Assembly: GCA_903852325.1 (NCBI GenBank)
Contig: CAINQO010000039.1
Location: 1 to 41,272 of the forward strand
Origin: Candidatus Omnitrophota bacterium
Lineage (GTDB): Bacteria; Omnitrophota; Gorgyraeia; Gygaellales; Profunditerraquicolaceae
Direction of reading: 5' to 3'
DNA: 41,272 bases
The position numbers were made by a program, and so were the translations under genes. Within the stretch, counting starts at the first letter, position 1; each line of letters starts with the position of its first letter. Under the pieces are notes generated by a model. It saw only the letters and a list, made by a program, of their open reading frames with translations, did not search any database and had not been told where the DNA came from. Of the stretch, positions 5,176 to 14,332 are shown piece by piece.

Positions 5176-5739
5176 TTAGCTGCTGCGCATCAGCGCCAGG
5201 GCTTCGGAACGGGTTTTTTCATTCTCTTTGAAAATCCCGCGCACCGCGCTGGTCACGGTCATTGTCCCGGGCTTCCTTACCCCGCGCATAGACATGCACA
5301 GGTGCTCGGCTTCGATCACCACCATTACTCCCAGTGGCTTCAATTTATTCATCACCATCTCGGCGATCTGAGTGGTCAATCTTTCCTGCACCTGCGGCCG
5401 GCGCGCCAGGATATCCACCACCCTGGCCAACTTGCTTAATCCGGTCACCCGCCCGTTTTTCGGGATATAGGCGATATTCGCCTTCCCCAGGAAAGGCAGT
5501 AAATGATGCTCACAGACCGAATATAAAGGTATGCCGCGCAATAAAATTATTTCATGGTGCTTCTGTTCCAAAACTACTTCCAGCTCTTTTTCCGGATCCT
5601 GCTTGATCCCGGAAAATATTTCTTCGCACATTTCGGCGTAACGCCGGGGTGTTTCCAAAAGATCCTTTCTCTGGGGGTCCTCCCCGATAGCTTCCAGGAT
5701 CTGGCGTACCGCTCTCTCGATTTTAGCTTTATTCATCAT
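5176..5739 (-). CDS. folE: GTP cyclohydrolase I
   Basis: [59 protein letters not shown] signatures. Confidence 0.95.
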
Positions 5740-10125: not shown

Positions 10126-10827
10126 TTATTTATTGAACCGGAAGTTAACCAGGTCCGCGTCCTGCATAATATAATCTTTTTGCTCCAGGCGCATTTTTCC
10201 CGCCTGCTTGGCCTGAGTTTCCCCGCCGGCGGCGATAAAATCGTCAAAGCTGATGATTTCCGCGCGGATAAAACCCTGCTGGATATCCGAATGGATCACT
10301 CCGGCGGCTTCCCAGGCAGTAGTACCTTTTTTTATCAGCCAGGCGCGGTTTTCCTTGTCCCCCACGGTCAAAAAACAAAGGTAGCCGCTTTGCGCTAAAA
10401 CCTTAGCCAAGAGCGCCCCGAAATCTTCCAGCTCTTCTTTCTGCACGACAACTACCGGCTTAAGGGTTAATAAGCCATAGCCAGAAATAACCTCTTTTTC
10501 CGCGTCGGTCAACCCCAGAGAAGAAATAAACTCTTCTTTTTCCAAAGCCGACTTCATCTTGCTTAAAATTATTTTTTCATTCTCCTGCGGGGCTTTGCCC
10601 AGCCGGGTTTCCACGAAATCCAGGTCCGCCAGGATAAGGTCCATCTTGGCCTCGGCGGGAATGATGATTACATCTGCCTCCATCGCCCCGTCCTGGCCGA
10701 CTAAATCTATCTGGGGATAGGTCTTCTTTTTCGCCTTGACCAATTTATCCGCTTGGTCCAGCCGGGTATCCTTGACATTGTGTTTACCTACGGTGATCCC
10801 CTCAATCGCGAATGCGCTTATTTTCAT
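10126..10827 (-). CDS. YchF-like protein lacking the GTPase core (TGS/DUF933 C-terminus retained)
   Basis: C-terminus [39 protein letters not shown]...[24 protein letters not shown] matches the YchF TGS tail; N-terminus has no Walker A. Confidence 0.85.
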   Translation of the reverse strand: [233 protein letters not shown]

Positions 10828-10936: not shown

Positions 10937-12124
10937 TTATTCCAGGTAGGTATAAATCTTGCCTTTATAATTACGCAGCACATACTTACCTTTGGCCTGG
11001 GAAAGGATGTAGTTTGGCCCCACGGGAATTTTCCCGCCGCCGCCCGGCCCGTCGATCACATAAGTGGGCACGGCATAACCGGAGGTGTGGCCGCGTAATT
11101 TTTCGATAATATTTATACCGGTAGCCACCGGGGTACGGAAATGCTGCGTTCCCCTGACCGGGTCGCACTGGTAAATATAATACGGCCTGACCCGGATCTG
11201 CAAAAGGTCATGTACCAGGCGGCGCATAATAAATGGCCGGTCATTGATCCCTTTCAGCAGCACGGTCTGGCTGCCTAACGGGATGCCGCTTTCAGAAAGC
11301 ATGTCACAGGCGTTTTTACAGCGCTTGGTGATCTCTTTGGGATGATTAAAGTGGATGCTCATCCAGATCGGGGAATATTTTTTCAACATCTGGACCAGGT
11401 TTTCGGTGATCCGCTGCGGCAGAGTAACCGGTACACGGGTGCCGATCCTTAACATTTCCACGTGCGATATCTCGCGGATTTTAGAAACCAGTCTTTCCAG
11501 GGCGTCGTCTTCCAAAGTAAGCGGGTCTCCTCCGGAGATCAGGACATCCCGGATCTTCCGGTTGGATTTAATGTATTCGATGGCCGCGTCAAACTTGGTT
11601 TCCGGGTTCAAATCTTTTTCCTCGTGTTCACCCACCAGCCTGCGGCGGGTGCAGTGGCGGCAATACATCGCGCAATGATCCGTCGACAATAAAAGTACCC
11701 GGTCGGGATACCGGTGCACCAAATGCGGCGCCGGAGAATCCCGGTCCTCGGCGCAGGGATCGGCCATTTCATGCGGAGAAACGCAAAATTCATCATTGAC
11801 CGGAACAGCTTGCCGGCGGAAAGAGCAATTCGGGTCTTCAGCATCGATCTGGCTGGCCCAATAAGGGGTAATCGCCATTGCCAGCCTGCCCTTGGCTTTG
11901 TCCACCCCCTTTTCCTCCTCCGGAGTAAGCTTGATAATCTGGACCAATTCTTCCTTAGTCCGAATCCTGTGTTTTAACTGCCAATGCCAATCTTCCCAAT
12001 CTAAAGGGTTAACGTCTTTGTAGAGAGAAATCTGCTGATAATCCCGGGAGCGTTTGGGAGGCCGCAGGATAACGGGCGGCTCAATCTGCGCTTTTTGGTT
12101 CTCTAAGCTTGCGGGGTTGTTCAA
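10937..12124 (-). CDS. kamA: Lysine 2,3-aminomutase family radical SAM enzyme
   Basis: HRYPDRVLLLSTDHCAMYCRHCTRRR (CxxxCxxC), ISGGDPL, RVRPYYIYQCDPVRGTQHFRTP, RGHTSGYAVPTYVIDGPGGGGKIPV. Confidence 0.9.
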   Translation of the reverse strand: MNNPASLENQKAQIEPPVILRPPKRSRDYQQISLYKDVNPLDWEDWHWQLKHRIRTKEELVQIIKLTPEEEKGVDKAKGRLAMAITPYWASQIDAEDPNCSFRRQAVPVNDEFCVSPHEMADPCAEDRDSPAPHLVHRYPDRVLLLSTDHCAMYCRHCTRRRLVGEHEEKDLNPETKFDAAIEYIKSNRKIRDVLISGGDPLTLEDDALERLVSKIREISHVEMLRIGTRVPVTLPQRITENLVQMLKKYSPIWMSIHFNHPKEITKRCKNACDMLSESGIPLGSQTVLLKGINDRPFIMRRLVHDLLQIRVRPYYIYQCDPVRGTQHFRTPVATGINIIEKLRGHTSGYAVPTYVIDGPGGGGKIPVGPNYILSQAKGKYVLRNYKGKIYTYLE

Positions 12125-13122
12125 TTCAGCCTTTTCCTTTCCGAGGCGCTTAAAAGTATGGCCTCAATCAGGTCCTCATATTTCATGCCGGCGGCATACG
12201 CCATTAGGGGAAAATTCGATTCCTTCGGGTCCAGCCCCGGTAAGGGATTAATTTCCAGCACATAAGGCACATTGAACTTGTCCAGGCGGATATCCGTGCG
12301 CGAGATATCCAGGCACCCGACCGCCCGGTGCGTGCGCAGGGCGACATCCTTTATTTTTGCTTCGGTCTCTTTGTCCAGCCGGGCCGGGCAATGAAATTCC
12401 GGCACCAGACCTAACTCCTGATTTCCCTGGAATTCTTTCATCTTCCAGGAATAAAAATACTCCCCGCTCTTTTTGCAATTTGAAAAATCTATCTCTAAGA
12501 TCGGCAGCACCCGGGTTTTCCCGTTCTCCAGGATCCCCACCGTCAATTCCTTACCCTCGATAAACTCCTCCACCAGCGCTTCCTGGCGGTAAATTTCGAT
12601 ACATTCTTTCACCTGGGATTTAAGGTCCTGGATGTTATGGACGACATTCTTTTTGTTGATCCCTTTGGCCGAACCTTCGCAATTGGGCTTGACGATCAGG
12701 GGGAACCTTAACTCCGAATTCGGGATTTCGTTCCCTTTCACAAAAAGCTGGAAATTCGGGGTGGGGATGTTTTCCGCCTTAAGTATTTTTTTAGTTAAAT
12801 TTTTGTTTAAGGCCAGCGCTAAAGCAAAAGTGTTGCTGCCGGTATAGGGTATCTTTAAATAATCCAGCACCGCCGGCACTTCGCTCTCGCGGAAACGGCC
12901 GTGTTTACCCTCAGCGATATTAAACACCATATCCACCCGGTTGGTTTTAAAATAAGACAATAAGGCGGGATACTCTACGTCGATCGCCTCCACGGAATGG
13001 CCTTTGGTCTTCAGGGCGGTAACCACGGAGTTGATCGTCTCGGCGGAATCGCATTCGGAAAAATAATCCGCCGGTTTTAAAGGGTCTTTCTTTTTTAAAT
13101 TATAGGTCAGGGCAACACGCAT
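12121..13122 (-). CDS. D-Ala-D-Ala ligase-like ATP-grasp protein (copy 1)
   Basis: FPLIVKPNCEGSAKGI, EEFIEGKELTVGIL, DIRLDKFNVPYVLEINPLPGLDP; abuts copy 2 and overlaps kamA by ATGA. Confidence 0.85.
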   Translation of the reverse strand: MRVALTYNLKKKDPLKPADYFSECDSAETINSVVTALKTKGHSVEAIDVEYPALLSYFKTNRVDMVFNIAEGKHGRFRESEVPAVLDYLKIPYTGSNTFALALALNKNLTKKILKAENIPTPNFQLFVKGNEIPNSELRFPLIVKPNCEGSAKGINKKNVVHNIQDLKSQVKECIEIYRQEALVEEFIEGKELTVGILENGKTRVLPILEIDFSNCKKSGEYFYSWKMKEFQGNQELGLVPEFHCPARLDKETEAKIKDVALRTHRAVGCLDISRTDIRLDKFNVPYVLEINPLPGLDPKESNFPLMAYAAGMKYEDLIEAILLSASERKRLN

Positions 13123-14112
13123 TTAATTTAGTTTGTTGCGCACCATGGCGCTGTTTAAGATCTTGCCGACCATCTGGGCGTAAGTGATCCCCAGGTTCTT
13201 GGCGACAAGCATGAACACATCTTCCGTCGATAAAGAAGGCAGCGGGTTTATCTCCAGGACATAAGGGTTGCCGTCATTATCCACCCGGAAATCCACCCGG
13301 CCGAAATCACGGCACTCCACGCTGCGGTAAACCTTTAAAGCCAACTCATCCAATTTTTTCTTCAAATCAGCGGAAATCTTTGCCGGACAGATATACTCCA
13401 ACCGGTCGGAGGTGATCCGGGCAAAGGTATAAAATTTGTCGTTTAATTTAAGCTTTCCGTCTATTTTTATCTGCACTACCGGCATGGCCTCGGGATTATC
13501 ATTACCCACGATGGCGACGGTAAATTCCTGCCCGGAAATAAATTCCTCGACCAGCGCCGGCTGCTTGTAGGTTTTCACGATAAAATCCACCTGCTTCTTC
13601 AGTTCCTCGATATTTTCCACCCGGGAATTCTCGGTCAAACCTTTGGAGGAGCCTTCAAAACGCGGCTTCACGATCAGGGGGAACGCGCAATGGTCCCGGT
13701 TGATCAATCCCTCGGCTGAACTTACTTCGAAAAATTTCGGGGTAGGGATCCCCTCGGCGATAAAGATTTTTTTGGCCATCACCTTGTCCAGGGTCAACCC
13801 CAAGGTAAGCGCATCGGCCCCTACAAAGGGGACCCCGGCCATTTCCAAAAGAATAGGCACCTGGGATTCCCGGTTCCTGCCGGTAAGCCCCTCGGAAATA
13901 TTAAAAACGATGTCGACATCCAGCTTGTCGATCTTCTCCATCAAATTCGAAGCGTTGCCGATCTTCTTGACTTTAAACCCGTTGGCGGAAATCGCTTCGG
14001 CGATAACATCGATAGTCGATAAAGAATCAAACTCCGCGTTGGCGTCAAGCGGATCCCCTTCTTTAAATTTATAATCTGTTTTTAAATCGTAAGTCAATCC
14101 GACGGTTTTCAT
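13123..14112 (-). CDS. D-Ala-D-Ala ligase-like ATP-grasp protein (copy 2)
   Basis: FPLIVKPRFEGSSKGLTENSRV, EEFISGQEFTVAIV, DFRVDNDGNPYVLEINPLPSLS. Confidence 0.85.
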   Translation of the reverse strand: MKTVGLTYDLKTDYKFKEGDPLDANAEFDSLSTIDVIAEAISANGFKVKKIGNASNLMEKIDKLDVDIVFNISEGLTGRNRESQVPILLEMAGVPFVGADALTLGLTLDKVMAKKIFIAEGIPTPKFFEVSSAEGLINRDHCAFPLIVKPRFEGSSKGLTENSRVENIEELKKQVDFIVKTYKQPALVEEFISGQEFTVAIVGNDNPEAMPVVQIKIDGKLKLNDKFYTFARITSDRLEYICPAKISADLKKKLDELALKVYRSVECRDFGRVDFRVDNDGNPYVLEINPLPSLSTEDVFMLVAKNLGITYAQMVGKILNSAMVRNKLN

Positions 14113-14190
14113 GATTTTTTTAATTTTTACCCCTTTAATTCTTCCGGATCAAGCCCCCGGGCGGGAATTTTAGCAAAGATTCAATAAAAA

Positions 14191-14226
14191 AGGGCTCACT
14201 TTCCACTACTTTATTTAGAGAGCCCT
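14191..14226 (-). terminator. Rho-independent-like terminator/possible attenuator
   Basis: Minus strand AGGGCTC-(22 nt)-GAGCCCT followed by TTTTTTATT. Confidence 0.6.
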
Positions 14227-14303
14227 GAAAAATCTATCCGATTTTTTCCAACTTAGTTATAAACCTCCGCTAATTTTGCCCAAAATGTTGTATTTATATT
14301 ATT

Positions 14304-14332
14304 TTTTTACCACAATATACCGGCATTGTCAA
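14304..14332 (-). promoter_or_regulatory. Candidate sigma-70 promoter for the ATP-grasp/kamA operon
   Basis: Minus strand TTGACA-17 bp-TAAAAA in an AT-rich gap. Confidence 0.5.

Follow-up and report, generated by a model that had tools for sequence, protein, structure and literature searches.

The operon described here combines a lysine 2,3-aminomutase-type enzyme (KamA) with two Ddl-like ATP-grasp ligases, and we propose, with a probability of roughly 0.6, that it makes a small beta-lysine-containing amide or peptide. The pairing of KamA with such a ligase recurs in at least nine phyla, sometimes as a fusion, and so has the look of a widespread route to some small beta-lysine compound. The established fates of beta-lysine made by KamA enzymes include catabolism, the osmolyte acetyl-beta-lysine, EF-P modification and antibiotics; the breadth of this module and its fusions suggest that there is another, perhaps common, fate. 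A broader version of the proposal is that KamA and a Ddl-like ligase constitute a widespread, biochemically uncharacterised pathway to a new class of beta-lysyl peptide metabolites, placed in Omnitrophota under an operon-specific attenuator-like or riboswitch-like leader without an Rfam match; this we offer tentatively, at somewhat short of even odds.

The operon and its leader

The window, by which we mean the whole stretch of 41,272 nucleotides analysed, is contig C39 of a 1.63-Mb Omnitrophota MAG that is 94.6% complete, and the operon lies among housekeeping genes. Its sequence contains three ORFs on the minus strand in the order ligase A, ligase B, kamA, preceded by a putative promoter and leader:

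14304–14332, minus strand: sigma70-like promoter (TTGACA at 14332–14327, a 17-nt spacer, TAAAAA at 14309–14304)
14186–14304, minus strand: conserved operon leader (GGAGG box, (A/G)TTG(G/A)AAAAA motif, then the intrinsic terminator)
14186–14225, minus strand: terminator hairpin (GGGCTC at 14225–14220, GAGCCC at 14197–14192, T-run at 14191–14186)
13123–14112, minus strand: ligase A, first gene of the operon, a 329-aa Ddl-like ATP-grasp ligase (from PF07478, AlphaFold and neighbourhood)
12121–13122, minus strand: ligase B, a 333-aa Ddl-like ATP-grasp ligase (from PF07478, AlphaFold and clade)
10937–12124, minus strand: kamA, a 395-aa radical SAM lysine 2,3-aminomutase-type enzyme (from phmmer, TIGR models and active-site residues)

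The three ORFs are found where the first-pass annotation of this DNA had placed them, and the junction that it described between the ligases is also correct, the end of ligase A (13123) abutting the start of ligase B (13122) with a gap of 0 bp. Ligase B and kamA overlap by 4 bp, which had been read as ATGA, but the overlap is TTGA and the start codon of kamA is TTG. Directly 3' of kamA (10126–10827, minus strand) is a gene for a YchF-like protein that has a DUF933 C-terminus and is without a Walker A motif, a shortened form common to 15 of the 17 proteins in its cluster.

A covariance model of the leader (R1) matches 19 of 25 relatives, once in each genome and always 5' of ligase A, and several of the relatives that it matches had no part in building it. 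In most relatives TTGACA is situated at a near-constant 78–81 nt before the leader motif, and at the equivalent place other families have hairpins with different stem sequences. Within the close set 97.7% of the cells of the terminator stem are paired, with no significant covariation, the stem there being too conserved to test. The single leader copy per genome, together with a promoter and an intrinsic terminator 5' of ligase A, suggests attenuation, and it is probable that the terminator-bearing leader gates transcription of the operon; alternatively, the leader might act as a separate small RNA. With RNAalifold the leader gave no consensus structure, and an Rfam gathering scan for a known riboswitch 5' of ligase A gave tRNAs only. 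There is also a suggestion, and only that, of a mini-ORF: the frame TTG-GAA-AAA reaches a stop within 7 codons in 31 of 37 leaders, compared with 22 and 17 in the other two frames, and from its TTG start would encode the peptides LEKIG, LEK or LKK, at a long spacing from the SD sequence.

The aminomutase and the two ligases

The kamA product aligns with clostridial lysine 2,3-aminomutase (2a5h) over 364 residues (phmmer, 8.4e-144) and scores 355.5 bits against TIGR00238, the KamA radical SAM family, well clear of the cut-off of 199.2. With TIGR03820 (AblA lysine 2,3-aminomutase) it scores 520.9 bits, just below the curated cut-off of 525.4, which we count against the proposed pathway, and it falls below the cut-offs for EpmB (TIGR03821; 255.6 vs 369.3) and glutamate 2,3-aminomutase (TIGR04368; 467.7 vs 650). 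The two aspartates pointed out earlier in YQCDPVRG and VIDGPGGGG are indeed there, aligned to the positions of D293 and D330 in 2a5h, and the enzyme further retains the CxxxCxxC cluster cysteines, R112, R116, R130, R134 and K337. From what is known of the clostridial enzyme, we take D293 and D330 to be the residues that bind lysine and K337 to be the PLP lysine. All three are kept in 110 of 110 aligned KamA rows, and the FeS cysteines and R134 in every row that reaches those columns. The zinc site is another matter, as an arginine stands at position 268 instead of C268 and the C-terminal CxCxxC occurs in none of the 110 rows. Ligase-linked KamAs are separate from the AblA clade containing 2a5h in a tree that, like the ligase tree below, is a FastTree estimate with local support only. 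Its residues make L-lysine the very probable substrate of the window KamA, which by the tests run is neither AblA nor EpmB and would be expected to carry out the same chemistry.

Both ligases are predicted with good confidence to adopt Ddl folds (PF07478 at 1.1e-39 for ligase A and 5.4e-37 for ligase B; AlphaFold pLDDT 88.7 and 88.8 respectively), and the best PDB matches of each are Ddl. They are paralogues with 40% identity. The equivalents of Ddl K97, K144, E187, R255, D257, E270 and N272 are present in both, which leaves the catalytic residues intact. Those of K97, K144, E187, R255, D257 and N272 are kept throughout the ligase groups, the only departures being a gap or a D in a few rows. 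The substrate pocket, compared with the host Ddl and the PDB matches as references, is altered: Ddl H63 is replaced by E in all ligase A, B and C rows reaching that column, and the S281/L282 pair is replaced in ligases A and B. Ligase A also has an invariant E27/D29 pair (alignment A4), and these extra carboxylates could suit a diamino acid. The canonical ddl of the host is elsewhere in the genome, between murB and ftsQ. Judged in this way, ligases A and B are predicted Ddl-fold enzymes that keep the ATP and metal residues of the Ddl and Van ligases and differ from these in substrate pocket, model scores and genomic context; they are not the cell-wall Ddl.

Conservation of the KamA–ligase pairing

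Ligase B and KamA were searched for in 285 genomes, and gene maps were drawn from the regions fetched. A ligase is located within 2.5 kb of KamA and on the same strand in 69 of 80 sampled Omnitrophota KamA regions (script count), of which the first 40 were chosen partly for a proximity of the two genes that was known beforehand and the last 40 came mainly from the KamA list. Among the 11 exceptions, three are true ablAB operons and a further three belong to the same AblA-like clade; there are also two KamAs of a third clade, and contig ends. The order A-B-kamA is seen in the family of the window and in several other Omnitrophota families, whereas further families have A-kamA without ligase B; ligase A adjoins KamA in either case. 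Families f16, f34, f36, f43 and f45 have kamA-C-A2, often with a GNAT, and in more distant Omnitrophota classes kamA-ligase lies beside TldD/TldE. The first-pass annotation had called the aminomutase fused into one operon with the ligases. The genes of the window are separate, but KamA and a ligase do share one open frame in four Omnitrophota genomes (L106, L193, L194 and L195).

We also scanned GTDB genomes with a ligase alignment and kept the best 80 loci, 72 of which contain KamA. They come from nine phyla (Chloroflexota, Planctomycetota, Thermodesulfobacteriota, Myxococcota, Acidobacteriota, Schekmaniibacteriota, Margulisiibacteriota, Caldifarciminota and Omnitrophota), and in all 72 the ligase is within 2.5 kb and on the same strand. 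The median gap between KamA and ligase is 4–7 bp across the Omnitrophota regions and these loci. This linkage is far beyond chance. The usual order outside the lineage of the window is kamA, ligase C, a second ligase and a GNAT acetyltransferase, and 36 of the 72 modules have a GNAT no more than 4 kb away. In the ligase tree the A, B, C/D and second-ligase groups are separate, and the ligase B orthologues fall into a single clade with members from Omnitrophota only. In the KamA tree the ligase-linked enzymes divide, for the most part, in the same way into an A/B and a C side, from which it appears that KamA and ligase travel together.

The first-pass annotation was prepared to abandon its reading if the neighbourhood proved unconserved or the ligases ordinary Ddl; the neighbourhood is conserved, as described above, and as far as sequence tells the ligases are not ordinary Ddl. 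The GNAT in the usual form of other phyla, the lack of ligase B in some Omnitrophota families and the terminator-bearing leader are observations beyond that annotation.

Several other neighbours were seen. In other Omnitrophota classes (as in L087, 3924–8302), TldD and TldE metallopeptidases and a 470-aa protein without a Pfam match lie beside kamA-ligase. In L116, L118–L121 and L168 (Syntrophaceae and related) genes judged by eye to be sensor-kinase-like and response-regulator-like are situated between ligase and kamA. In several Chloroflexota loci (as at 5197–6936 of L183) the module is followed by a protein in which a GNAT is fused to a histone deacetylase-like part, and an S66 LD-carboxypeptidase adjoins the module of L198. 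The third KamA clade (L197 and L199) adjoins genes that, again by eye, are saccharopine-dehydrogenase-like and polysaccharide-deacetylase-like.

Proposed pathway and alternatives

What linkage and fusion show is that these genes work together; as the amino acid taken by the ligases, beta-lysine is on this basis only a candidate. In the proposed pathway KamA would use PLP, SAM and a 4Fe-4S cluster to make L-beta-lysine from L-lysine, as its conserved residues indicate. Ligase A would then turn a carboxylate into an acyl phosphate and join it to an amine, a chemistry suggested by its fold and catalytic residues, with beta-lysine as one likely partner in view of the linkage and fusions. Ligase B may add a second bond or partner, so that families with ligase A only would have a simpler end product, and in other phyla the GNAT probably acetylates the product. 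The negamycin cluster, where beta-lysine formation likewise occurs together with an ATP-grasp enzyme, is a precedent (PMC12154649). By analogy, the product would most likely be a storage peptide or a soluble peptide resembling a compatible solute, and less likely a precursor of the cell wall. Against this, the TldD/TldE, S66 carboxypeptidase and PIG-L genes beside the module in some lineages are equally in keeping with peptide processing. The class of pathway put forward by the first-pass annotation is thus well supported by the lysine-type KamA pocket, two catalytically intact non-housekeeping ligases, the conserved neighbourhood and the fusions, although we infer its chemistry and product; the module provides a concrete gene set for finding the latter.

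Two familiar routes for beta-lysine were considered for this genome. AblB and EpmA had been reported as not adjacent to the operon, and neither is found genome-wide: AblB has zero matches, with no relative above the cut-off, and all EpmA model matches are under the cut-off, the best being in a 485-aa frame of LysRS size. The AblAB osmolyte pathway and the EpmA/EF-P route are accordingly rejected here, their partner genes not being found; true ablAB operons are present in other Omnitrophota. The module resembles ablA-ablB, which leads to N-epsilon-acetyl-beta-lysine, in the substrate residues of KamA and, in other phyla, in its GNAT partner, but AblB has no match in this genome, and the window KamA, which is without a zinc tail, groups apart from AblA.

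The nearest described relatives are the MXAN_4097-like ligases of M. xanthus and the type 3 D-Ala-D-Ala ligase operon of lichen Nostoc, likewise Ddl-like ligases beyond the housekeeping Ddl. Related ligases have thus been noted earlier, and the module is biochemically uncharacterised; our literature search found no paper with both '3-aminomutase' and 'ATP-grasp'. In MXAN_4097 two C-terminal domains of Ddl follow one another in tandem. Disrupting it had no obvious effect on morphology or growth (PMC9108774), which we count against the pathway. LAM, for lysine 2,3-aminomutase, is one of the abbreviations given in the Nostoc paper (PMC5987646). Compared by description only, the window operon differs in having two separate ligases, kamA and an operon-specific leader.

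The Nostoc authors suggest that their operon modifies peptidoglycan peptides (PMC5987646), and ligases that make an alternative peptidoglycan dipeptide or a side branch with beta-lysine are the best surviving alternative, albeit an unlikely one. The Ddl fold and the S66 LD-carboxypeptidase beside one module are in keeping with this, but the D-Ala pocket residues are replaced and a GNAT partner is not a cell-wall hallmark. No mur or other cell-wall genes are recognised adjoining the window operon and the canonical ddl has its own place between murB and ftsQ, for which reason the peptidoglycan branch of the first-pass reading is left without positive support.

Slightly less probable still is a secreted beta-lysyl compound of the negamycin or streptothricin type. 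The negamycin cluster does pair beta-lysine formation with an ATP-grasp enzyme (PMC12154649), and the accessory genes of our modules differ by lineage (TldD/E, GNAT, PIG-L, S66). However, conservation at the level of order and class in small Omnitrophota genomes argues against a specialised metabolite, as do the housekeeping surroundings of the window operon, beside which transporter, resistance and tailoring genes are not recognised; the window also has no recognised hydrazine gene (KinJ/NegJ-type), and scale and context differ from those of the negamycin cluster.

Some other ATP-grasp enzymes modify proteins, and the attachment of beta-lysine or a beta-lysyl peptide to a protein side chain would have a precedent in EpmB/EpmA acting on EF-P, as described in two reports (PMC2821294, PMC4231759). 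This we regard as highly unlikely, as EpmA is not found in the genome, the ligases are of the Ddl type that acts on free amino acids, and no conserved target gene occurs in the neighbourhoods. Least probable of all is that the ligases are ordinary D-Ala-D-Ala ligase duplicates next to an unrelated KamA, an identity that we reject notwithstanding that their best NCBIfam matches are Ddl models, since the scores (203.6 for B and 193.3 for A) are below the 243-bit Ddl cut-off, the pocket is changed, the canonical ddl is separate, and KamA is linked and at times fused. Given the wide conservation of the module, the name D-alanine--D-alanine ligase would seem to be wrong for many of the genes that carry it.
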